Source: Clostridia bacterium
GTDB taxonomy: Bacteria > Bacillota > Clostridia > Oscillospirales > CAG-272
Length of the DNA: 34,050 bases
Reading direction: 5' to 3'
Assembly (NCBI GenBank): GCA_017468385.1
Contig: JAFUIQ010000045.1
Span: forward strand, 1-34,050
Part shown: positions 2,519 to 14,082 of the stretch, piece after piece
Layout of the letters: each line of letters opens with the position of its first letter
How positions within the stretch are numbered: the first letter of the stretch is position 1
Made by a program: the position numbers and the translations under genes
The notes under the pieces: model-generated
Seen by the model: the letters and a program-made list of their open reading frames with translations, nothing else
Told to the model about the DNA's origin: nothing
Database searches by the model: none

Positions 2519-5059
2519 TCACCACACCTGCTTCTGCATGACAAGGGATCCGTTGCGGCCGCTGATGTACAGCATGTATTGATGCACAGCGCCGCCGGCG
2601 TCCGTAAAGGAGATGCCGTAGGTGGTCATATCCCCGTAGAACACCACGCCGATAACCAGCGCTGTCTGCTTATCCAATGCGGGCAAGGTATACAGATCCC
2701 CGCCGGCGGCGAATCCGTCCGCCGTATAATCCAGCGTAGTAAAGCGGATATCCGTCAGGGGCTCATAAGCGCGGAACAGCAGTTTCTGCGTGTATTCCGA
2801 CTCCGTGACGATGTGCTCCACATATTCCGTGCCGATCTGGCCGCTGTCCCGCACCAGTTCCACCGTCATAGGGATATGGGGTGCCACCGCCACGGCTTCG
2901 TCCAGATCGATCCAGCCACCCGATTCCAGCCGGCCCCACCGGATTCCCTCACTGTCCGTCGTTTCCTCGGTGATGGTATAGGTACCCATTTTCAAGAGAG
3001 CACCGTCCGATGAGGAATCGTATCCCGGCTCGGTATAAATCGGCAGATCGGGGCGGGTAACGGAGAGGCTGTTGGAAATGCCGGTTTCTCCCCTGTGCCG
3101 TGCCACAAACGCCGCTATATCCTCCGTTGTCACGTCGGCCCACGCATCGGAATCGCGCACACAAAGGCGGATATACATAGGCGTGCCGGTCCGTTTTCCG
3201 TCTCCGATCATCAGATAGAAGGTTTCATCAATTTCGTATCGGCAAATATACAATCCCGAGCCAACATCCCGGCAAGCGTAGCCGGCGAAATCCTCCCAGG
3301 TGAGATAACTGCCCCATTTGGATAGGGTAATCACATCGTCCAGAGTGAGCTGCGCCCCCGATTCATCGGGCAGAGGGGCGGTATCCGTTACCGTCTGCAT
3401 CTCAATCCTCTCCTGCCGGAACGCATAGGCCCGCTCCCGCAGGGCGGATAGTAGCAGCACCTGAGCCAGGCTGGCATCCACATCGTCCGCACTCATGCCC
3501 GTCTCAAATGTCAGCCGATTGTATCCGATGTGTACTTTCCCGTTCAGGCAGGTGGATATGCAGGCATAGCACACAGATTTGCCCCAGGAAGTGACAGGAA
3601 CGGTGGTTCCCACCACATTGTCCCCGGAATAAAAGGTGCGGTTGACTTCGGCGATATCCAGATTCCGGCCGTAGATCACAACGGTGCGCCCCTCGGTATA
3701 GATATCGGAGAGGATCACCTCTTTATCGGATGCGGCCAGATCATACAGCACCACATCGTGCAGATAGGCCACGTAATAGTTTTTCTTTGCCATGCGGGCT
3801 TCAAATTCCTTCAGCGACATGCCGCAGATCACGTACTCGTCGCTTTCGTTGATCCGGAAGGCCAGTTTCGTGAAGTCGTTGTCAAAGAGGTAGATCAGTC
3901 CGTAGGAATACTGTCGGGCACCGTCATAGTACCAGATGGGCGGCGTCTCACTTGCCAGATCCACGCGCGCGTCCACCCGTCTTCCGTCAACGATAAAATC
4001 TCCCCGGAACTCATCAAATTCGATTTTTCCGTTCATCTCCACGGTACAGGCCACGGCGGAAGTCGGATCCTCGCAGGGGAAGCGTATGCCCTCCACGGAC
4101 GAATCCACAAACCGCTCCGGATTCGTCAGAAAGCACACCGCCGCCACCGCGCAGGCGATCACCGCCAGCAGCCCGATCCAGAACGCGGGCTTTTTGTAGT
4201 GCAGCACCGACCGGATCCGCTCCTTCACGCCCACCTCGCCGAAGGCCAGGGGACAGGCGGAAATCATTCTGTTTTTGATACTGCATTCCAGCAGTGCCTG
4301 GGAATAGTCCGCCCGCGCGTCCTCTTCCATGTCCCGCACCACCCGCTCGTCGCAGGCCATCTCGATATCCCGGCACAAAAGGATGTAGGAGAGCCAGATC
4401 AGCGGATTAAACCAATGCACGGTCAAAAGAAGAAATCCCAGCGGCTTCCACCAGTGATCCCGCCGGCAAATATGGGCCTGCTCGTGGGCGATAACGTACT
4501 GCCGGCTCCCCTCCGCCAGATCGGCAGGCAGACAGATCCGCGGCCGGATGATACCGAACACAAAGGGGGACGGGATGCTCTCGCTGATGTAGACATTATC
4601 CTGCAGATGGTGTGCCGACCGGATGCGGCGATACACCTGCCAGTAGCTGATGAGAGCATACAGCACCATCGCCGCCATGCCCGCGATCCACACCCAGGCC
4701 AGCACAAAGGAGGCGCTGATACTTCTGCGAACCGTAATGGTCGGAGCGGTGGGGTAATAGTGGACCGTCACGTCCTCTCCTATGATGGAATCCACCGGGA
4801 TGTCCTCCGGCACGCTGTCAAAGAAAAAATCTTCCTCGGGCACATCCGTATCCTGCCCGATCCACTCCGTTTCCGGCATCAGGCTGTAGGCACTTTCGAT
4901 GGTGATGGGGCAGATGAGGCGGACGGCCACCAATCCCCACAAAAGGACGCTCACCCAACGGGGCGCACCACGGAACACCAGCCGCAGAAGGAGCACCACC
5001 ATCACCAAAATGCTGGCGGACAGGCTCATGTTGATCAGTTTCAAAAACAATTCGGTCAT
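2519..5059 (-). CDS. BlaR1/MecR1-type M56 membrane metalloprotease with non-standard sensor
   Basis: An 846-residue membrane protein of peptidase family M56, the signal transducers that cleave a BlaI-type repressor when they sense a signal. N-terminal membrane segments occupy about residues 8-30, 35-55 and 115-140. The zinc site is H192-E-Q-A-H196, with E233 in the EMACDE stretch as the likely third ligand. Another membrane helix lies near 293-315. The outside part (about 315-846) is not a penicillin-binding domain: I see no STxK/KTG set. It has an SH3-like stretch near residues 690-750 and beta-rich segments. It overlaps the repressor gene by 4 bp (ATGA), so the two are translationally coupled. 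The ligand is unknown; an envelope or antibiotic signal is the family expectation. Confidence 0.9.
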   Translation of the reverse strand: MTELFLKLINMSLSASILVMVVLLLRLVFRGAPRWVSVLLWGLVAVRLICPITIESAYSLMPETEWIGQDTDVPEEDFFFDSVPEDIPVDSIIGEDVTVHYYPTAPTITVRRSISASFVLAWVWIAGMAAMVLYALISYWQVYRRIRSAHHLQDNVYISESIPSPFVFGIIRPRICLPADLAEGSRQYVIAHEQAHICRRDHWWKPLGFLLLTVHWFNPLIWLSYILLCRDIEMACDERVVRDMEEDARADYSQALLECSIKNRMISACPLAFGEVGVKERIRSVLHYKKPAFWIGLLAVIACAVAAVCFLTNPERFVDSSVEGIRFPCEDPTSAVACTVEMNGKIEFDEFRGDFIVDGRRVDARVDLASETPPIWYYDGARQYSYGLIYLFDNDFTKLAFRINESDEYVICGMSLKEFEARMAKKNYYVAYLHDVVLYDLAASDKEVILSDIYTEGRTVVIYGRNLDIAEVNRTFYSGDNVVGTTVPVTSWGKSVCYACISTCLNGKVHIGYNRLTFETGMSADDVDASLAQVLLLSALRERAYAFRQERIEMQTVTDTAPLPDESGAQLTLDDVITLSKWGSYLTWEDFAGYACRDVGSGLYICRYEIDETFYLMIGDGKRTGTPMYIRLCVRDSDAWADVTTEDIAAFVARHRGETGISNSLSVTRPDLPIYTEPGYDSSSDGALLKMGTYTITEETTDSEGIRWGRLESGGWIDLDEAVAVAPHIPMTVELVRDSGQIGTEYVEHIVTESEYTQKLLFRAYEPLTDIRFTTLDYTADGFAAGGDLYTLPALDKQTALVIGVVFYGDMTTYGISFTDAGGAVHQYMLYISGRNGSLVMQKQVW

Positions 5060-5427
5060 TTCCCTCCCCCTTTCCGCGCCCGGTCGATCATGGCCTGCAA
5101 TTCGTCCAGATCCCCCTCGGACAAGGTTTGTCTTTTCGTAAAGGCGGCAAAAAACGCAGGCAGCGATCCGTCAAACTTCTTTTCCACCAGTTCATCGATT
5201 TCGGAGGATTGCACCTGATCCCGGGAAACCAGCGAGGTGATGATGGAATTCTCGTTTTTCACCACGCACCGCTCCGTCAATCGCTTAATGACGGTGTAGG
5301 TGGTGGTGCGTTTCCACGCCAGCTGATCGGCACAGAGTCGGACCAGATCCGAGGTGGAGATCGGCTCGTGCTCCCACAGAATCCGGCAGAATTTGTATTC
5401 ACTTTCAAAAATTTTCGGCGTTTCCAT
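5056..5427 (-). CDS. BlaI/MecI/CopY-family repressor
   Basis: A 123-residue winged-helix repressor. The sequence shows the family pattern: an N-terminal DNA-binding domain with the W-KRTTTYTVIKRL recognition region (about residues 37-50), then a C-terminal helical dimerisation part. Such repressors bind paired dyads and are cut by the partner M56 protease. The ATG at 5427 has ribosome site AAGGAG. The promoter just upstream holds two related 16-bp dyads, one of them between -35 and -10, which fits autorepression. No beta-lactamase gene adjoins, so the regulon may lie elsewhere. It is the first gene of a two-gene operon with the protease. Confidence 0.93.
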   Translation of the reverse strand: METPKIFESEYKFCRILWEHEPISTSDLVRLCADQLAWKRTTTYTVIKRLTERCVVKNENSIITSLVSRDQVQSSEIDELVEKKFDGSLPAFFAAFTKRQTLSEGDLDELQAMIDRARKGGGK

Positions 5428-5510: not shown

Positions 5511-5535
5511 AAAAAGAGCCTCCCGGCTCTTTTTG
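5511..5535 (-). terminator. Terminator of the 9163-5545 operon
   Basis: Stem AGAGCC / GGCTCT with loop TCCC, flanked by A- and T-runs, just past the stop of the beta-helix lipoprotein gene. It resembles the hairpin at 9293-9321. Confidence 0.88.
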
Positions 5536-5544
5536 TTTGATTTC

Positions 5545-7722
5545 TTATTTCCAGCAAACGCCGTTATCGTCCAGGGAAACCGTGACGGAATCGGTAGTTT
5601 CCAGCGTGGGGGACGAATCGCCCAGCACAATCACCTGGGCACTCATTGTGGTGGGAATACGCACCGTGGCCGTGCTGTCCCCGATGCCGGCCACCAGATA
5701 CTGATCCCCGGTAAGGGTAAGCTGCGTCGCCTTGCCTACGCTTGTGAAATTCCGGCAATGGGTGGCTTCGCCCGACATACCGCCCCGGGGCATGATGGCA
5801 ATCACCGCACCGCCCGTATAGGTGTATCCCTGCTCGCTATCGATGGCGGAATTTCCGCCGGAGGTGGAAATAACCACCGTATTGCCGCCGTCAAAAGCGA
5901 TGCCGGCGTACGAGGTACGGCTGTTGGAATCGATTCCGTCACCGCTGCAGTAAATATAGACCGTGCCGCCGCTGATGCGGACCACCGTCCCGGTGGTGGT
6001 TGTGGCGTTGATTCCGTCATCCTTGGCGATTACGGATACCGCACCGCCTGCCACATGTACCGTGTTTCCTTCCACACCCTCATAACAATTCTCAATACAG
6101 ATCCGGCCTGCCGTTATGCTGACCGCCCCATCTGCGTGAATTCCGTCATCGTTGGAATACAAAGTAAGTGTACCGCCGCTCACCGTCACATGGCCGAGAG
6201 CCGATTCCCCATTCTCCAGGGCCGTATCGTTGTTGGCGTGAATCGCATCGTCGTAGGATTTGATCGAGGTGGTTCCCGCCGTGATCACGATCTCATTGGC
6301 CGCCTTGATTCCCTTGGTGGAATAGTCTCCCTTGTCGGTATTGCCATCCTGCATACCGCCAAATCCACCGGGGCCGCCCGGCCCTCCCGGACGGCCGCCG
6401 AAGCCGCCCTCCTGGATTTTGGTGGTGTAGTTGGTCCAGCTGTAGGAAAGCTGATTGCCGCGGCTGGTCAGCGCAAAGGTATCGTAGGCCGTATTGGGCG
6501 TCATGGCATCCGATGCCACCAGATACTCCGTATCCTGCCCCAATTCCATATCGGAAGAATAGACAAAGAACTGCATACGGCTGTACGCATCCTGTTTGGG
6601 GAACGCATAGTAATAGTACGTACTCCGCCCGCCTTCTACTGAGGAATGATATTCCGCATTGACCCAAAGGAAATCACTGTCGGAATTGGAATATTTCACG
6701 GAGTATTTGTACTGGTTGCTCGTGAAGCGGATATAGTATCCCTCCGCAGACACCGCTGTAACCTCCTCGGAATAGGCAGAATATTTATCCGTAAAGATGG
6801 ACAGTACGGTATCCTCCCCCTCGATGTGCACGTCATAGGCCGCATCGATTCCATCGCACGCCGCGTAAATGGTATGACTGCCGCCTGCAATGGTGACCGT
6901 TCCCCGCTGATTCCCTTTTTCGGAGATGTTGCTGTTGGATGTTTTGATGCCGTCACCGCCGGTGGCGATCAGCGTCAGATTGCCCCCCGTGATCTCCACG
7001 CTGTCATTGCCCTTGAGGGCGTTGTCCACGCAGGCCACCGTCAGGGTCAGATTCTTCACCGACAAATCGTCCTTGGTATGGATGCCGTTGTTGTTTTCAG
7101 ACACGACCGTCCATGCGCCCTTGCCGGATATCTCCAAATCCGCCGCGGCGTAAATCGCCCCCGCGTGCAGCGTCTCATCGGCGGCATCCACTGCATCCCG
7201 CATATCGTACAGATAATTCTCGTAATTCTTTTTGGCCGTCAGCGTAACCTTGTCGCCGCTGAGCACCGTGATGGGATTCACCTGATGGCTGATCAGGGAG
7301 AATCCGTGGAATTCCAATTCAAACCGCTGGTCCGCCCCCGGATCGATCACGATATTTCCCGTAAATTTCCCGGAGACAGCGTACACCGTTTCCTCCCCCA
7401 CCGCCGTAAAGCGCAGGGTATCTCCGTCCAGGACGTACGCATTCGGCGTGCCGGAAATACATTCAATGGAAATCTCGTGGACAGGAGTTCCCTCCGAATC
7501 CCCGTCGAAAAATCCGGCATACAGTCCCAGATTGTCCGGCGCTTCGCCGGCAGCCGGATCATCCTCTTCCAAAGGGAGCGTGTCCCCGCCGAAATCCCTT
7601 TCCCCGGGCACACCGGGCATATCCGGCATATCCGGCATATCCGGAAAATCCTGTCCGGGGGTGTTGGCGCATCCCGCAAGCAGCAGCACGCACAGCCCCA
7701 GCGCTATCCTTTTTCTATACAT
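5545..7722 (-). CDS. Cthe_2159-like beta-helix carbohydrate-binding lipoprotein
   Basis: A 725-residue lipoprotein. The signal peptide ends in lipobox L-L-A-G-C18. A low-complexity linker follows in which FPDMPDMPDMPG comes from three 9-bp tandem repeats near 7619-7646. The remainder is full of right-handed beta-helix rungs with repeats such as DDGIHADGAVSIT, NDDGI and GDGIDSNS, matching the Cthe_2159-type domain (Pfam family of cellulose/pectin-binding beta-helices). Two blocks (about 100-300 and 460-660) flank a less repetitive part and a Gly-rich GGFGGRPGGPGGPGGFGG stretch near 440. It likely sits on the outer face of the membrane and binds polysaccharide. The gene is last in an operon with the VTC-type and DUF4956 genes, 12 bp behind the latter, with ribosome site GGAGGAG. 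Substrate is inferred only. Confidence 0.85.
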   Translation of the reverse strand: MYRKRIALGLCVLLLAGCANTPGQDFPDMPDMPDMPGVPGERDFGGDTLPLEEDDPAAGEAPDNLGLYAGFFDGDSEGTPVHEISIECISGTPNAYVLDGDTLRFTAVGEETVYAVSGKFTGNIVIDPGADQRFELEFHGFSLISHQVNPITVLSGDKVTLTAKKNYENYLYDMRDAVDAADETLHAGAIYAAADLEISGKGAWTVVSENNNGIHTKDDLSVKNLTLTVACVDNALKGNDSVEITGGNLTLIATGGDGIKTSNSNISEKGNQRGTVTIAGGSHTIYAACDGIDAAYDVHIEGEDTVLSIFTDKYSAYSEEVTAVSAEGYYIRFTSNQYKYSVKYSNSDSDFLWVNAEYHSSVEGGRSTYYYYAFPKQDAYSRMQFFVYSSDMELGQDTEYLVASDAMTPNTAYDTFALTSRGNQLSYSWTNYTTKIQEGGFGGRPGGPGGPGGFGGMQDGNTDKGDYSTKGIKAANEIVITAGTTSIKSYDDAIHANNDTALENGESALGHVTVSGGTLTLYSNDDGIHADGAVSITAGRICIENCYEGVEGNTVHVAGGAVSVIAKDDGINATTTTGTVVRISGGTVYIYCSGDGIDSNSRTSYAGIAFDGGNTVVISTSGGNSAIDSEQGYTYTGGAVIAIMPRGGMSGEATHCRNFTSVGKATQLTLTGDQYLVAGIGDSTATVRIPTTMSAQVIVLGDSSPTLETTDSVTVSLDDNGVCWK

Positions 7723-7734
7723 ATTCGCTCCTCC

Positions 7735-8427
7735 TCACAACTCTCCCGAGCGGCTTTCCTGTCGGGACACCATGATCTCCAGATTGCCGTTCCGGGTGCG
7801 CAGACGGTCGATCAGCGCCTTCTCCGCAGAACAATCCTTCAGGATCACATGGTATGTAAGCCGGAACATGCTGCCCATGTTGGTGGTCTTAACCTGCACC
7901 AGCTCGTGCTCTTTGGTGTATTCTGCGAAAATATCGTCAAACACCTCGGTGTAGTCCAGATCCTCAGGGATGGTGATCTTGATCATCTTGTGTGCCGTGG
8001 GAAGTCGGCGCCCGCGGATGTCCACCAGATCATACAGCACGAACACGGCGCACATAATCACCGTAAACAGCGCGGCAAAGCCAAGATAACCCATGCCGGC
8101 GATCAATCCGGCACCCATGGCGAGAAAAATGGTGACGATCTCCTTGGCAGAGCCGGGGGCGGAGCGGAAACGAACCAGGCTGAACGCCCCTGCCACCGCT
8201 ACACCGGCACCGATATTTCCGTTGACCATCATAATCACCACGCACACCACCGCCGGCAAAAGCGCCAATGTGATCAGGAAACTTTTGGTGTATTCCCCCC
8301 GCCACATATAGGCCGCCGCCATCACAAGGCCCAGCAAAAGGGACACCCCCAGGCACAGCAAAAAATCGCCGACGCCAATGGCACTCACAAATTCCGTATC
8401 AAAAATTCCTGTAAAAACTGCATCCAT
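7735..8427 (-). CDS. DUF4956 membrane protein
   Basis: A 230-residue integral membrane protein of the DUF4956 family. Hydrophobic helices lie near residues 15-40, 46-66 and 88-120 (for example LLGLVMAAAYMW and LITLALLPAVVCVVIMMV), with the conserved middle block FSLVRFRSAPGSAKEI after GAGVAVAG, then a soluble C-terminal ferredoxin-like part. No enzyme motif is visible. I chose the start at 8427 because AGGAG lies ten bases upstream; an ATG at 8448 in the same frame lacks a ribosome site. The 5' end overlaps the VTC-type gene by 29 bp, which implies coupled translation. DUF4956 genes commonly neighbour VTC-type polymerase genes in Firmicutes, so a role in the same membrane process is likely, but its biochemistry is unknown to me. 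Confidence 0.88.
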   Translation of the reverse strand: MDAVFTGIFDTEFVSAIGVGDFLLCLGVSLLLGLVMAAAYMWRGEYTKSFLITLALLPAVVCVVIMMVNGNIGAGVAVAGAFSLVRFRSAPGSAKEIVTIFLAMGAGLIAGMGYLGFAALFTVIMCAVFVLYDLVDIRGRRLPTAHKMIKITIPEDLDYTEVFDDIFAEYTKEHELVQVKTTNMGSMFRLTYHVILKDCSAEKALIDRLRTRNGNLEIMVSRQESRSGEL

Positions 8428-9163
8428 CTTTCCATTTCTCCTGTTCATTCTGCGCGTTATGCCAATCCGCCCTGGGGAACAGCATGGTTTCGTAAGCCGT
8501 GCCGTATTTCGAAAAGGAGGTTTTGTAAATCCGCTCCCGGGACAAAACCTGCGTCATCCACATGGGAATTCCTCCTGAGCATTTCAGTTCCATGAGAACC
8601 ATTCCCTCCTCCAGAATCGGCTGGCCGTAGGCGGGACTGGTCAGATCCACATCCTCCTGCCGGGCGAGAATCCGATCATCAAAGGTGACCCGGAAATCCC
8701 CGCCGTTCTTTTCATAGAAGGCCTCCCTCTCGTAGGAGAGAAACACCGTAGGCTTCAGCCCGCAGTAATACTCCATGAAGTAATCGATTTCGCGGGAAAT
8801 CTGCGTCTGCACCGGGCAGGGTTTTATGCCCGCCGTCCACTGCATGGCATCCGATTCAGCCAGGGGAAGCCGCCGCTTGTATACCACATTATCGTATTTT
8901 TTCTTCAGTTCCACAAACACCGTGCTGTCGTGGGAAGCCTGGGCATAACTGCGGAGGCGCAGTTTTTCTTTGTAGGCCGGCTTTTCCACCGACCGTCGGA
9001 TCAGCCGATAGGTATCCGTATCGAAATAGATGTTGCGGATCGTTGATCGCCCGTAAGCATCCATAGCCATATAAGGCGCCATGGCCTGCAAAAGCATCTG
9101 TTTCTGCTCCCGCGTCAGCATGTATTTCAGTTCATACCGCCGGAACACCGTTTGATACGCCAT
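8399..9163 (-). CDS. VTC-domain polyphosphate polymerase-like protein
   Basis: A 254-residue protein of the VTC/CYTH tunnel-enzyme fold, which in yeast Vtc4 makes polyphosphate from ATP. The tunnel residues are visible: E11-x-K13 in RRYELKYML, the basic strand KEKLRLRSY, VFVELKKK, then YKRR, SYERE, RVTFDDRI and a late acidic strand VLMELKC. There is no SPX domain and no membrane segment, so it is probably cytoplasmic and would work with the DUF4956 membrane protein whose gene it overlaps. The start at 9163 (MAYQTVFRRYE) has GGAGG in front; the longer frame to 9196 has no ribosome site. It begins an operon VTC - DUF4956 - beta-helix lipoprotein. Polymerase activity is inferred from fold and motifs. 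Confidence 0.88.
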   Translation of the reverse strand: MAYQTVFRRYELKYMLTREQKQMLLQAMAPYMAMDAYGRSTIRNIYFDTDTYRLIRRSVEKPAYKEKLRLRSYAQASHDSTVFVELKKKYDNVVYKRRLPLAESDAMQWTAGIKPCPVQTQISREIDYFMEYYCGLKPTVFLSYEREAFYEKNGGDFRVTFDDRILARQEDVDLTSPAYGQPILEEGMVLMELKCSGGIPMWMTQVLSRERIYKTSFSKYGTAYETMLFPRADWHNAQNEQEKWKDGCSFYRNF

Positions 9164-9194
9164 GCTCCCCCTCCATTCCCCGCATTGTACATAC

Positions 9195-9203
9195 ATGATA
9201 CCA
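9195..9203 (-). promoter_or_regulatory. Possible extended -10 promoter of the VTC operon
   Basis: Minus-strand TGGTATCAT is an extended -10 element about 30 bp before the VTC-type start. No good -35 is seen. The 9204-9290 stretch otherwise holds nothing I recognise. Confidence 0.4.
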
Positions 9204-9292
9204 TATTCACCTAAAAACAGGCTAAAGAACCCGACCCTTTATGCCCCTCAAATACCGGCAAAAGTAAGCCCCACTGTATTTCGCTGTCCAAA

Positions 9293-9321
9293 GCAAAAAG
9301 AGCCTCGCGGCTCTTTTTGTT
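9293..9321 (-). terminator. Terminator after the CotH-type gene
   Basis: Stem AGAGCC / GGCTCT, loop TCGC, with A- and T-runs on both sides, between the CotH-type gene and the VTC operon on the same strand. The two are therefore at least partly separate transcription units. Confidence 0.85.
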
Positions 9322-9344
9322 GACACGCAGGAACCGCTCCTCCG

Positions 9345-11363
9345 TCATTGATCGGAACAATAGTATGCATACAGCCATGCATTCCGTTTCTCGAGCCAGT
9401 CCTTCAAGTACGCAATTTCGCCGTCGTACGTACCGTCGACGGGTCTGTGCTCATACAGGCTGTACCCCGTTTTGGTCGTCCAAAGCGAATTGTTCCGGTC
9501 AATCCCTTCGCGGTGCGCCGCCACCAGGCTGTCAATTTGATTGGGACCCAGTTCATTATCCCGGTACAAATTAGCAATGATCGGCTGGTATTCCACATAA
9601 AGATCCCGGACAAGCGCCCGGAACTCTTCATACTGGAACAGATACTGATTGAACAGACCGACGCACTGCAGCCCTTCGTAGGACAACCCGGATGTGTCCA
9701 CGTTATTGTATGCCGGATAATAGGATTTCGAACAGTTGCCCGAGCTCAGATCAAAATCCCAGACGGGACCTTCATACAGTTTGTTGTCCTTTATATAAAA
9801 CCGCGTGCTGCTCAAAAGATAATCGATATTCTTGAACAGCTCCTGAACGATATAGCATCTGGCGAACGAATCCACGTCCACATAGGTCTTCACCCGATCG
9901 TAGTCCCCCGACAGAAGGGCGTTTTCCGCGTCTGTCATGAAATTCTTGAGCCAGGTGCGCTGTTCCGCACTCGGCGTTTCCGGCTCGTTATATCCCAAAA
10001 TCAGATTGATAGTCGGCGTGACGATGCAGGAGGGATTGGAATATCCCCGATACGGCTCCAACTCCATCAGATATTCGTTGTTTTCGGTGTCAATGTCCAC
10101 CTTGGTTTTGCTCACATCGATGGGCTCGCATATCTGATACAATCCGCAGTACTCGCCGTTCAGATATACCTCCGCAAAACAGGAATTGGACGTATAGTTT
10201 ATCCCAATTGTTTGCGCAAAGGAATAGGCTATCGTATTGCGCAGCTGGGTTTTGTCATACAGATTGGCAAGCAGACACCACTTTTTCCCTTTGCCCAATC
10301 CAAGCAGCTCCATCTTTTCGGAGAACTTGATGTTGTACGGTGCTTTTTTGCCTACCGATGTGGAATTTCCGCGGATCTTCACAGTGGATTCCGCATCGTA
10401 CACATCGCTGTACACACCGGTGGGATCATGTACAGTGATGGCGCAGGAAACATATTCCCGACGGCTGATGGTGTTGTCGGTAGTAAGGTACACCTGCGGC
10501 AGGGATCCGGAAGCGTTGGGAAGCTCCGCCTGCCCCAGCGGGATCACGCCGATGCGCCGATCTCCGAACGGATTTTTGTATTCCTCACGCACCGCGCCAG
10601 ATAAGCCATCGGATATATAGGTTATCATCGCCGCGCGATTGCTGACGACAGCATCCGTCACTGCGGCGGCATCTTTGAATACGTCCGCTATTTGGCCGGT
10701 GACAGATTGGCTGAATGTGATCGTATATGTGTTGTCCTCCACAAGAGCCGTGCCGCCGATCTGCACGTTTTGTACGCGCCGCTTCCCGGAAATGCCAACG
10801 ATTTTGCCCGCTTTGTCCGTTTGAACCGGCGAGGGTGTGTTCAAATCCAAAACGAGCGTCAGGCCGCTCACATGCGCATATTCGGGATTGGCGGCGGGAA
10901 GATGACGGTATGCGATTTCAAGACAGTCCAGGATCGCGGCCCCGGTGGCCCGCACCGTAATCAGATCGCTTTCCACGGGGAGCACACCGAACACATCCGC
11001 TATGGTGATATCGCCCGGGGCGATGCCGCCGCCGATCTCGGCGGCGCATACGATCGCCGCATCGGCATCCGCGGCACTGCGATAGGCATCGGCGCAGAGA
11101 TTTCCCAGATTGGTTTGTGCCCGGGAAAGGATGGTTTGCCCGCCGGACGGGTCCGCCGCGACCAGCGCATATTCGGTTTTTCCGATCACGGTATTCACAT
11201 CTATGGGAGGAACCTCCGGTTCTTCCGGCGTAGGATCTGTCTCCGGCGGGATGGCGGTTGTATCTTCCGTGCCGCTGACGGGAACATCCGACACCGATCG
11301 GCATCCGCCAAGAACACTGCATGAGATTAAAAGAGCAAACAGAATCATGGAAATTTTTCTCAA
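9345..11363 (-). CDS. Lipoprotein: 5'-nucleotidase C-terminal domain fused to CotH kinase domain
   Basis: A 672-residue exported lipoprotein with an unusual domain order. A signal peptide ends in L-G-G-C21, then a Pro/Glu linker. Residues about 60-270 match the 5'-nucleotidase C-terminal domain, with GGGIAPGDITIADVFGVLPV followed by ITVRATGAAILDCLE and the SGL strand. The catalytic metallophosphatase half is absent and the usual NGGGIR is changed to EIGGGIA, so substrate binding may be lost or altered. Residues about 290-600 match CotH: KIRGNSTSVGKK, the Lys in YNIKF, and metal motif VWDFDLSSGN. CotH proteins are spore-coat or surface protein kinases. The start is probably TTG at 11363, eight bases after GGAGG; a TTG at 11369 is too close. 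It stands upstream of the VTC operon. The fusion is the notable point. Confidence 0.85.
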   Translation of the reverse strand: MRKISMILFALLISCSVLGGCRSVSDVPVSGTEDTTAIPPETDPTPEEPEVPPIDVNTVIGKTEYALVAADPSGGQTILSRAQTNLGNLCADAYRSAADADAAIVCAAEIGGGIAPGDITIADVFGVLPVESDLITVRATGAAILDCLEIAYRHLPAANPEYAHVSGLTLVLDLNTPSPVQTDKAGKIVGISGKRRVQNVQIGGTALVEDNTYTITFSQSVTGQIADVFKDAAAVTDAVVSNRAAMITYISDGLSGAVREEYKNPFGDRRIGVIPLGQAELPNASGSLPQVYLTTDNTISRREYVSCAITVHDPTGVYSDVYDAESTVKIRGNSTSVGKKAPYNIKFSEKMELLGLGKGKKWCLLANLYDKTQLRNTIAYSFAQTIGINYTSNSCFAEVYLNGEYCGLYQICEPIDVSKTKVDIDTENNEYLMELEPYRGYSNPSCIVTPTINLILGYNEPETPSAEQRTWLKNFMTDAENALLSGDYDRVKTYVDVDSFARCYIVQELFKNIDYLLSSTRFYIKDNKLYEGPVWDFDLSSGNCSKSYYPAYNNVDTSGLSYEGLQCVGLFNQYLFQYEEFRALVRDLYVEYQPIIANLYRDNELGPNQIDSLVAAHREGIDRNNSLWTTKTGYSLYEHRPVDGTYDGEIAYLKDWLEKRNAWLYAYYCSDQ

Positions 11364-11429
11364 AACCAATTCCTCCGACTCACTTCATGGAAACCCATTG
11401 TTTTCCGTAATTCTCCAATGGATAGATGT

Positions 11430-11458
11430 ATTATATCACACTCGGAACCGTTTTGCAA
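11430..11458 (-). promoter_or_regulatory. Promoter of the CotH-type gene
   Basis: Minus-strand -35 TTGCAA (11453-11458), 17-bp spacer, -10 TATAAT (11430-11435), about 65 bp before the TTG start. Confidence 0.75.
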
Positions 11459-11559: not shown

Positions 11560-12900
11560 TTACTGAATCTTTACGTAAATCTTACAGGTTTCATCGTAGA
11601 GCACAAGATCTCCCACTGCGGTGTCGCTATCGATCAAGAAAGCGATCTTCCATTGGTTATTGCCAAGATACTCCCGATAAATGCCTTCGCCATTGCCTGA
11701 ATGTGATTCCGGCTTTCTGTTGACCGCGGCATCTATGGATGTCATCTCCACCTTGCCGTCGGAAATTGTGTAGCCCTTCAGATCAAAGCCGTTGACACAG
11801 GCTTTGATCATTTCTTCGTTTGCCGCCTCATCGTCCGGAATAATGGTTACATCCTCCATGGTCAGCGTTACGACATACAGCTTCTTTGTGACGGAAACAT
11901 CTTCACCGTACTGCAAAGCCCATCCTTGCCCATCCTGAACGAGTATTTTCTCTGTACGTGTGTAAGGAATCAGTTTTCCGGAGTCGTCGATAAAGCTTTC
12001 CACATAATCCTTCCGGGTGATGCAATGCCGATTCAGTACATGGATGTTGTCGTGGATTTCCACGCGGTTCACCGTTGCGGTGTACCAGTCGTTGGCGGCG
12101 CGGACGGATTCTCCGATTTCCAATAGATCCGCCTCGTAAACGGGATCGCGTTCTATGACGATGGGTGTCGTCCAGTCGAAGGAATCATCGCTGACCTCAT
12201 TGCTGATCGGAAGCGCGAGCCACGGATCGTCGGTTTCCTCCAGCGTAAGCGTGGAAGCCATGGCAAGAAGTTCCTCATCCGTGATGCCGTAGCTCACCCA
12301 AAACTTCAGAACAAGCTCCTCTTCCTGCAGTAAGATATACGCCGTGCGATTGTAGTATGCCGCCTCACTGTGGCCTTTGATTACGTACATTGGCTTTCCG
12401 CCCGCATCGATCTGCTGGATATCGGCATTGCCGCCGATGATCTGATCCAGATCACTGCGGCGAAGGTCGATACCGTTGACGGTCATGCCGCGGGAGGTGT
12501 CATCGCTGTAGTATTTTCCGTTGGTGTTTTCTCTTTCTCTCATATCGGCGGGCAGATCGGGAATGAGCAGGCGGACACTGATCTCACCTTCCTCCGCATT
12601 CCAGCTGCGCGGGGGCTTTTCCTCCCGGTCAGCGGAGGTATCTCCTGTTTCATTCAGGCTGGCATGAATGTGGGTTTCATCTCCATCCCGTACCAACCGA
12701 AATTCAATCCACTGTACCGCCGCATATGCGCTGACAGTCAGAACAGACAGAAGGGCGGCGCAAGCCAGAATTCTGAGTGGAATGCGGGGGGCGGAACTCG
12801 CACAGCCGCTTTTTTCCGCTGTCTCTTCGCGCCGAAGGGCATTCCTTACCGCTTCTTTGCGCTCGGTGTACGATTTTGAAAAAATATGTTTATCTTTCAC
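11560..12900 (-). CDS. Probable membrane anti-sigma factor (DUF4367-like)
   Basis: A 446-residue single-pass membrane protein. The charged N-terminal segment (about 1-45) would be cytoplasmic, followed by one helix (about 46-62, LRILACAALLSVLTVSAYAA) and a large outer part. That part contains a DUF4367-like stretch near residues 160-205 (YVIKGHSEAAYY ... LVLKFWVSYGITDEEL) and a C-terminal region of beta-strands. The start is GTG at 12900 with ribosome site AGGAGA, overlapping the sigma gene by 11 bp, so synthesis of the two is coupled. The order sigma then membrane protein is the common one for ECF sigma and anti-sigma pairs. I see no zinc-binding ZAS motif, so the anti-sigma role rests on context and topology. 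Confidence 0.72.
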   Translation of the reverse strand: MKDKHIFSKSYTERKEAVRNALRREETAEKSGCASSAPRIPLRILACAALLSVLTVSAYAAVQWIEFRLVRDGDETHIHASLNETGDTSADREEKPPRSWNAEEGEISVRLLIPDLPADMRERENTNGKYYSDDTSRGMTVNGIDLRRSDLDQIIGGNADIQQIDAGGKPMYVIKGHSEAAYYNRTAYILLQEEELVLKFWVSYGITDEELLAMASTLTLEETDDPWLALPISNEVSDDSFDWTTPIVIERDPVYEADLLEIGESVRAANDWYTATVNRVEIHDNIHVLNRHCITRKDYVESFIDDSGKLIPYTRTEKILVQDGQGWALQYGEDVSVTKKLYVVTLTMEDVTIIPDDEAANEEMIKACVNGFDLKGYTISDGKVEMTSIDAAVNRKPESHSGNGEGIYREYLGNNQWKIAFLIDSDTAVGDLVLYDETCKIYVKIQ

Positions 12901-13408
12901 AATGTATCTCCTTTTCGGTATGTTGGGGTGTCCCTTTCAAGAGTTTGCGGGCACGCTCACAGCGCTTTCTCACCAGAGCCTCGCTGATTTTCAGCACAGC
13001 CGCGGTTTCCCGGACACTCAGCCCGTCCAGAAACAGGCATCGCATGACAGCGGCGTATTTGGGCGGAAGATCTGCCAGCAGGGATAGGGGCAGATTTGTC
13101 ATCCCATCCTCGACGGCTGCAGTGTTTTCGATGGCCTCATCCAATACCAGACAGTTTTCCCGCAGTTTCTTTTGTGCGCGGTACAAATCCAGGGCGGCGC
13201 TTCGCACGGTTTTGTATGCATACCTGCGCACGGCGGGTGATTGCGGATCCGCTATCTTGCTGCGGTTCCGTATCAGACGCAAAAATGCTTCATGGACGGC
13301 ATCTTCTGCCAAATATTCGTCATGCAATATTTTGTATGCTTCAAAATACATCGATTGCTCATACAGTCTGTACAGCGCATCGATAATATCCTCATTTGTA
13401 TATGGCAT
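12890..13408 (-). CDS. ECF-type RNA polymerase sigma factor
   Basis: A 172-residue ECF sigma factor. Region 2 is at about residues 5-70 (DALYRLYEQ ... AEDAVHEAFLRLIRNRSKI). Region 4 is at about 110-160, where the helix-turn-helix reads YAAVMRCLFLDGLSVRETAA then VLKISEALVRKRCERARKLL. The start at 13408 (MPYTNEDI) is chosen for the GGAG seven bases upstream; the frame continues back to 13507 without a ribosome site. It forms an operon with the membrane protein at 11560-12900. Target promoters are not evident; the upstream 100 bp holds no clear copy of a conventional promoter, so autoregulation by a special -35/-10 is possible but unproved. Confidence 0.9.
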   Translation of the reverse strand: MPYTNEDIIDALYRLYEQSMYFEAYKILHDEYLAEDAVHEAFLRLIRNRSKIADPQSPAVRRYAYKTVRSAALDLYRAQKKLRENCLVLDEAIENTAAVEDGMTNLPLSLLADLPPKYAAVMRCLFLDGLSVRETAAVLKISEALVRKRCERARKLLKGTPQHTEKEIHCER

Positions 13409-13563
13409 ACCATAGCTCCTTTCCGTGGGTTTTCGTCCGGACACTAACCATAACGATGAGAAGGATGTGTTTGTGACAAAACGGAGATATTTTTTATATT
13501 TTAGCATATTTCCCCTTCCTTTACCATGGAGGTTTTTTACGTATACTAAAGTATTTTATCTTT

Positions 13564-13769
13564 CCCCGGTTGAACCGGGGGTTTATTTCCACGCCTTAAT
13601 GGCGCCCAAAAAAGCACATTCCATTTTTGGAATGTGCTTTTTCTGTGGCTGCAGTCTCCACACCGTAAGGAAGAAGAGAAAGCGGCCTCGAAAAGCCGCA
13701 CAAATACTGGATTTATAACAAAAACACCATTGCGTCCGAGTGCGGCAGTTCGGATTTCCATGGTGTTTT
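13564..13769. repeat. Cluster of five inverted repeats, no gene
   Basis: Five stem-loops follow each other: CCCCGG / CCGGGG (13564-13580), CGCC / GGCG (13592-13604), a 14-bp stem AAAAAGCACATTCC with its complement (13609-13642), GCGGC / GCCGC (13682-13699), and AAAACACCAT / ATGGTGTTTT (13721-13769) with an inner TCCGA / TCGGA. Small open frames on both strands here have no ribosome sites and no recognisable families. The 14-bp stem could terminate in either direction, but no gene ends here. It looks like a palindromic intergenic repeat. Confidence 0.6.
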
Positions 13770-14082
13770 CAGTTCTCTTATTTGCAGCGAAAGGGCAGAT
13801 GAACTTTTCAGCGATGATGGAAGCTGCACTTGACTGCGATCTTCCGGGACGCAACGCCATGCTTGTGAACGAGTCCTGTGTGATGAATTGAATAATTCAT
13901 AGCTTGTGGTATAATTATTTGTGGTATGTATTTGCAAAGAACCAGAGAATTTTTCTTCCAACCCAACCTTTTCCCATTTTTCGATAACATATAGGTGAAC
14001 CCACTTAAAACATATGCCGACCGATTCATGATAAGGTTAAGTATATGTCCATTTGATGATTAGACCATGAGGAGGTGAATTT
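13770..14082 (+). promoter_or_regulatory. Upstream region of the large sigma gene, possible promoters
   Basis: A plus-strand TTGAAT (13888-13893) and TATAAT (13910-13915), 16 bp apart, could be a promoter with a leader of about 160 bases. Its -35 lies inside a perfect dyad ATGAATT-GAAT-AATTCAT (13883-13900), a possible operator. Nearer the gene, GAAC and CGAC 17 bp apart around 13998-14020 loosely resemble an ECF promoter, which would fit autoregulation. Both are weak calls. No gene is supported in this stretch. Confidence 0.35.

Follow-up and report, generated by a model that had tools for sequence, protein, structure and literature searches.

A neighborhood in which genes for CotH, a polymerase, DUF4956, and DUF4832 lie beside Pel genes was described in 2020, reportedly by Whitfield. 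In its available text, that neighborhood study names cotH-PPP-DUF4956-DUF4832 accessory genes beside pelDEADAFG, with PPP denoting poly-phosphate polymerase (PMC7112168). The experimental study of such genes appeared in 2025 and deals with SIR_1594-1591 of Streptococcus intermedius (PMC12345266). In the text available from that report, SIR_1592 has an MgtC plus ACT make-up, and we infer that it is a DUF4956 protein. Deletion of SIR_1592 or of the CotH gene changed Pel level and aggregation, whereas the same text reports no such change for deletion of the VTC gene. It also states that the three-gene arrangement was not found outside Pel loci (PMC12345266).

In eukaryotes, the VTC complex hands polyphosphate into the vacuole, according to the available text of PMC10657179. 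The bacterial polyphosphate makers named in the accessible parts of two reports are PPK1 and PPK2 (PMC10657179, PMC13318637). For VTC-DUF4956 genes, we found no polyphosphate measurement reported in the open-access literature, as far as its available text goes.

The gene cluster and the VTC-DUF4956 pair

The window, the whole 34,050-nucleotide stretch of DNA analyzed here, encodes a CotH protein (9345..11369), a VTC-type triphosphate tunnel polymerase that is a putative polyphosphate polymerase (8399..9163), a DUF4956 membrane protein (7735..8427), and a Cthe_2159 carbohydrate-binding beta-helix lipoprotein with the lipobox LAGC (5545..7722). The first-pass annotation described four co-oriented genes, and this is confirmed: all lie on the minus strand and all exceed their Pfam cut-offs, at 146.5, 141.9, 57.4, and 214.8 bits, respectively. 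The VTC ORF is listed from 9196, and its likely start is the ATG at 9163, preceded by the ribosome-binding site GGAGGGGGAG. The DUF4956 ORF is listed from 8448. Its overlap with VTC is 50 bases from the first ATG and 29 bases from the second (8427), which is favored because an alignment of relatives supports it; the 29-bp overlap noted earlier is right if DUF4956 starts there. Genes for a BlaR1-like M56 peptidase and a BlaI-like repressor (2519-5427, minus strand) lie just downstream of the cluster. On the other side are genes for a 446-aa protein (11560-12900, minus strand) and an ECF sigma factor (12890-13507, minus strand), which overlap by 11 bases. Pfam, with E limited to 0.01, recognized neither the 446-aa protein nor a 765-aa window protein; the former is perhaps the anti-sigma partner of the sigma factor that it overlaps.

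The pairing of VTC with DUF4956 is constant in the genomes sampled. Among 39 relatives, each family gave 34 matches, and DUF4956 adjoins VTC downstream on the same strand in all 34 cases. In an even draw of 129 genomes from the phylum, 15 contain both families and the remaining 114 contain neither (Fisher 6.7e-20; Fisher and Poisson values here ignore relatedness). Each family has 21 matches in this sample, and the two are adjacent in 20 of 21 pairs, with DUF4956 downstream in 17 and upstream in 3. The 21st pair (G130) lies on two contig ends, and 3 of the 21 (two in G000, the window's genome, and one in G036) are already among the relatives' 34. Among 14 named control genomes, scored for presence, both families occur in the same three: Bacteroides ihuae, Corynebacterium glutamicum, and the archaeon Methanosarcina acetivorans. 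On plasmids, the pair was found in 4 of 4 examined, of five records with VTC; one is from an actinomycete.

We also examined the best 80 of at least 594 confirmed loci, ordered by their similarity to the VTC of the window; this set describes the window's clade only, and several of its loci are short contigs. The pair is present in 79 of the 80, and in the remaining locus (L108) VTC ends 119 bases from the contig end. The two frames overlap or lie no more than 20 bases apart in 68 of these 79 loci (best 80 of at least 594). Overall, VTC and DUF4956 behave as one module, and the earlier proposal that polymerase and DUF4956 belong together is borne out by their adjacency in 34 of 34 cases in relatives and 20 of 21 in the phylum sample. 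Elsewhere in the window's genome, another VTC-DUF4956 pair precedes two tandem CotH genes of 788 aa each by ORF (L023, G000:C21:15000-31000).

The VTC (PF09359) match of 141.9 bits compares with a cut-off of 23, and the VTC profile matches VTC4 structures with an E of 6.2e-22. Yeast VTC4 residues R264, R266, E426, and K458 correspond to R80, R82, E203, and K230 of the window's VTC, numbering that was worked out by hand from alignments. These four and 18 other columns (22 in total) are invariant among 32 sequences, drawn from the relatives' 34 loci with the exception of 2 missed by the first gene call (alignment A2). R264/R266/E426 is a triple whose change inactivates VTC4, according to the available text of PMC9911596. 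The first-pass annotation named loss of tunnel residues as a finding that would refute it; the compared residues are intact, with R80, R82, and E203 invariant. The chain consists of the VTC domain alone, and no SPX or VTC1-type membrane domain was detected (Pfam, E up to 0.01).

PPK1 gave no match in the window's genome (93.64% complete) and none in 20 of 24 VTC-bearing relatives. It is present in 4 of these 24 and in 3 of 15 other genomes, so there is no mutual exclusion with VTC. A PPK2 match of 277.7 bits in the window's genome contains one in-frame TGA (L159, G000:C17:31687-32352), and given this match the organism may own another polyphosphate enzyme.

CotH and the VTC unit

CotH lies 148 bases from VTC on the same strand, and a CotH gene occurs within 6 kb of the VTC-DUF4956 pair in 14 of the relatives' 34 loci, including the window (0.37 expected). 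Both observations favor the first-pass view that all four genes form one system, in which a polymer or phosphate donor made inside is used by CotH outside. We nevertheless consider this very improbable. A perfect inverted repeat with a T-run separates CotH from VTC (9294..9319, minus strand; 11-nt arms, 4-nt loop), and a promoter-like site, TTGCAA-17-TATAAT with TG before it, lies upstream of CotH (11430..11458, minus strand). The repeat, seen by repeat search at 9319-9294 and unlisted in the terminator scan, is probably the terminator of CotH. A terminator-like hairpin also follows the VTC unit, 3' of Cthe_2159 (5511..5534, minus strand). The scan found 15 terminator-like sites versus 9.7 expected. 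Promoter-like sites in the region numbered 9 versus 8.3 expected in shuffles, so the site upstream of CotH is weak alone. Such promoter-like and hairpin sites are pattern matches and no proof of transcription units.

Comparison across genomes also argues against CotH as a member. Orthologues of this CotH occur in two relatives, G021 (70% identity, contig C7) and G003 (58% identity, contig C6), in both cases unlinked to VTC. In G021, an orthologue of the window's 446-aa protein (70%) lies near the CotH orthologue (L136, C7). Stretches of 18 and 14 kb around the G021 and G003 orthologues showed no further window-protein match. The G021 VTC nearest the window's (69%, L045) shares contig C33 with DUF4956 and Cthe_2159, and its surroundings out to 6 kb showed no CotH. 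CotH was found beside VTC in 0 of 80 stretches examined (best 80 of at least 594 confirmed loci). The Pfam CotH model, run on the genomes of 30 of these best 80 loci (of at least 594), found CotH somewhere in 14 and nowhere in 16.

Both partners, CotH and Cthe_2159, lie within 4.5 kb of VTC in the window alone among the 114 loci listed, a further point against the inclusion of CotH in the set. The hairpin between CotH and VTC, the unlinked orthologues, and the count of 0 of 80 (best 80 of at least 594) led us to reject the four genes as a single unit. CotH is probably a separately transcribed neighbor of the VTC unit. The idea of CotH as part of the system fits loci of another clade, where CotH partners VTC-DUF4956, better than it fits this locus.

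The CotH protein has a more complex architecture than first described. Residues 82-220 are a 5'-nucleotidase C-terminal domain (Pfam 88.8 bits), missed in the first pass, and the CotH kinase domain (PF08757) spans residues 330-666. The CotH profile matches the CotH structure 5jd9 with an E of 1.3e-31. D498, D516, and D538 are invariant in an alignment of 15 CotH proteins, made up of 13 of the 15 at VTC loci plus two orthologues; we take D516 and D538 to be the catalytic pair. The protein is probably a lipoprotein, judging from an LGGC motif read by eye that the lipobox pattern did not flag. In the 5'-nucleotidase domain (PF02872), the alignment to 2z1a has a gap at the Arg of GGGIR and Val at the Phe of PFGN, presumably both nucleotide-site residues. 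With the Arg missing and the Phe replaced by Val, nucleotide binding by this domain is doubtful. The fusion of the 5'-nucleotidase C-terminal domain and CotH kinase in one frame occurs in 3 of 39 genomes, those of the window (9345-11369), G021 (L136, 6125-8155), and G003 (L137, 3413-5437).

Surface partners across loci

Cthe_2159 occurs within 6 kb of VTC in 10 of the relatives' 34 loci, versus 0.24 expected. The window alone has both this gene and CotH within that distance, and neither was found within 6 kb at 11 of the 34. The surface partner is not constant across VTC-DUF4956 loci. Within the window's clade, Cthe_2159 is no more than three called genes away at 72 of 79 pair loci (best 80 of at least 594); of the 7 of 79 with no close copy, three (L079, L104, and L126) have a contig end soon after. 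Genes at these loci were called by script as simple longest ORFs, and CotH and Cthe_2159 were found in the best 80 of at least 594 with our own HMMs. Measured against Pfam in the relatives, these HMMs recovered CotH at 14 of 14 linked loci and Cthe_2159 at 9 of 10, under the nearer three-gene rule. The beta-helix lipoprotein proposed in the first pass can be retained as a conserved third member in this clade. Of the suggested conserved neighborhood, VTC-DUF4956-Cthe_2159 stands and CotH drops out (0 of 80, best 80 of at least 594). The conserved unit here is VTC, DUF4956, and the Cthe_2159 beta-helix lipoprotein, in that order.

The Cthe_2159 lipoprotein (PF14262) has a profile match to a solved relative, PDB 4peu, with an E of 1.7e-20. 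Lipoboxes were detected in 59 of 76 Cthe_2159 proteins near VTC, versus 0 of 114 VTC and 2 of 115 DUF4956 proteins (loci listed). In the available text of published work, this fold is dependent on calcium and binds cellulose as well as pectate-like polymers (PMC6712302, PMC8746771). At four loci (L110, a VTC-DUF4956-Cthe_2159 locus of Lachnoclostridium phytofermentans, 12476-13892; L113; L119; L129), a phosphodiester glycosidase (NAGPA) gene, named from L110, and an ORF of 138-153 aa follow Cthe_2159 or lie just beyond it.

A rapidly built tree covers 114 VTC proteins; of its 111 inner branches, 48 are weak. On this tree, 2 changes account for the labels Cthe_2159, CotH, and both over 95 labeled rows, and 18 are required when the 19 loci with neither partner are treated as a third state. 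The window sits among the Cthe_2159 loci. In other loci, CotH stands in place of Cthe_2159, clade by clade, and some loci have neither.

We considered and rejected a restriction of the module to Pel loci: PelF and PelG, detected with models built from 3 sequences each, occur together beside just 3 of the 14 CotH-linked loci and are absent as a pair from the stretches examined at the other 11. The same pair was found in 0 of 80 stretches examined (best 80 of at least 594 loci), with one weak PelF alone (L063), and the window gave no PelF or PelG match at E up to 1e-10. Among these 11 loci, CotH comes last in nine (VTC-DUF4956-CotH) and first in the other 2, the window and L050 (CotH-VTC-DUF4956). 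In Nonomuraea and Planococcus, VTC, DUF4956, and CotH are present, with no PelF or PelG within 6 kb. A Planococcus maritimus plasmid carries VTC, DUF4956, CotH, a large protein, a HEAT protein, and a glycosyltransferase in succession (L163, 5389-12069).

These neighborhoods bear on an alternative in which VTC makes no polyphosphate. Its tunnel would instead act on nucleotides or short polyphosphates, by hydrolysis or transfer, and the module would modify a surface polysaccharide, for instance by phosphorylation, or adjust how much of it is present. The three Pel-linked loci and the glycosyltransferase and HEAT protein of Planococcus agree with such a role, as do the altered Pel amounts in two S. 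intermedius deletions (available text of PMC12345266) and the binding of polysaccharide by Cthe_2159 proteins (available text of PMC6712302). It is opposed by the compared VTC4 residues, which are kept, and by the lack of PelF plus PelG in the stretches examined at 11 of 14 CotH-linked loci and in the best 80 of at least 594. We regard this alternative as unlikely.

DUF4956 and a possible route for polyphosphate

The DUF4956 protein has three hydrophobic segments (residues 27-45, 61-84, and 109-139) followed by a soluble tail. G87, R93, R95, and G114 are invariant among 29 sequences, and R93-x-R95 ends a hydrophobic stretch; the alignment (A1) covers 29 of the relatives' 34 genes, the first gene call having missed 5. 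Comparison by hhalign of a DUF4956 profile with an MgtC profile, the latter built from 11 MgtC proteins (of 21 matches) of these genomes, gave a Prob of 95.3 and an E of 2e-8 over 198 columns. Controls (two reversed profiles, eight block-shuffled ones, and five from other families) gave E values of 0.022 to 0.7. With E allowed up to 1, the window's protein had no match to the Pfam MgtC model (PF02308), whereas 14 of the 29 aligned proteins match it weakly (lowest E 0.0019), missing its curated cut-off. In the other direction, the MgtC model finds one DUF4956 gene weakly, below cut-off (G034:C9, E 3.5e-4). A PDB profile search gave nothing significant and no likeness to the VTC1 membrane domain; the RelA ACT domain scored an E of 0.24, not significant. 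From such comparisons, DUF4956 is a remote relative of MgtC, by shared fold or ancestry, with an MgtC-like membrane part and a probable ACT-like C-terminal part.

DUF4956 could be a regulator or anchor rather than a channel, with an ACT-like tail that, as in MgtC, senses the state of the cell and turns the polymerase on or off at the membrane. Polyphosphate would then stay inside, and the surface lipoprotein would have another task under the same control. We see this as a real possibility, and a regulatory role is nearly as likely as the favored export reading. The homology to MgtC spans both the membrane and tail parts, and MgtC proteins are known as regulators, not channels, as the available text of PMC12345266 also has it. 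The similarity to ACT, not significant here, has a counterpart in the ACT part of SIR_1592 described in that text. Genes for a histidine kinase or response regulator lie near 46 of the 79 pair loci (best 80 of at least 594); kinase and regulator were named from one member each, and none of six two-component proteins reached a curated NCBIfam cut-off among the matches listed. Against regulation, the frequent lipobox-bearing surface partner points to a task outside the cell, and a regulator, we reason, need not occur in each genome that has VTC.

We tentatively favor a split VTC, in which the polymerase operates on its own membrane protein, DUF4956, frequently joined by a surface partner that varies with the clade and is Cthe_2159 here; we hold this with slightly less than even confidence. 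The pairing, the mostly overlapping or touching frames, the kept tunnel residues, and the remote likeness to MgtC are features of the sequences themselves. From them we infer a polyphosphate product, its export, and its use at the surface. The VTC polymerase would dock on DUF4956 and use ATP to make polyphosphate on the inner side of the membrane. An assembly of DUF4956, probably oligomeric, would anchor or gate the polymerase and lead the chain outward, where the surface lipoprotein could hold or use the polymer or its calcium salt. Taken together, VTC and DUF4956 would amount to the eukaryotic VTC complex in split form.

More speculatively, and doubtful on present evidence, VTC-DUF4956 may be a prokaryotic polyphosphate synthase-translocase that puts polyphosphate on the cell surface for use by clade-specific surface proteins. 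These users could be a calcium-dependent beta-helix, or CotH, which might even draw its phosphate from the polymer in surroundings poor in ATP. The published S. intermedius deletions, as given in the available text, cut both ways for the split-VTC reading: a strict two-part machine would not predict a Pel change with deletion of SIR_1592 but none with deletion of VTC. With a constant partner, what is annotated as a "VTC domain protein" becomes a two-gene system that can be tested, and DUF4956 gains a working context outside Pel loci.

The eukaryotic VTC complex (VTC4 with VTC1, VTC2, or VTC3) has a homologous tunnel polymerase, whose equivalent residues are kept in the window's VTC, and like the bacterial module its polymerase is accompanied by a membrane part. 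The two differ in that polymerase and channel helices are fused in the eukaryotic complex, whereas the window has a separate, MgtC-like DUF4956 partner. DUF4956 differs from the MgtC family itself in its invariant residues, its weak Pfam matches, and its position beside VTC in the counted pairs.

The Pel accessory genes and SIR_1594-1591, in the available text, share the VTC and DUF4956 families with the window. The window is unlike that group in having no PelF or PelG match, and its conserved partner is Cthe_2159. In contrast to the statement in the accessible text of PMC12345266, 11 of 14 loci here with the three genes showed no PelF or PelG in the stretches examined. In Clostridium perfringens, NELoc-2 has a VTC gene, then a membrane protein of 222-226 aa, and CotH (PMC2879425, table). 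The 222-226 aa protein is labeled tubulin/FtsZ there, and we take it to be DUF4956. According to the same table, genes for a 685-aa protein, a HEAT protein, and a glycosyltransferase come next in NELoc-2, the same succession of gene types as on the Planococcus maritimus plasmid, and Cthe_2159 is unlisted (PMC2879425).

As far as the available texts go, the CotH/VTC/DUF4956 neighborhood beside Pel genes (2020) and the MgtC-ACT make-up (2025) are already in print. The constant VTC-DUF4956 pairing and the Cthe_2159 form were not found in the open-access literature, within the text accessible. To these systems the present analysis adds the constant pairing in the sampled genomes, a Cthe_2159 form accompanied by two-component genes, and the exclusion of CotH from the cluster.
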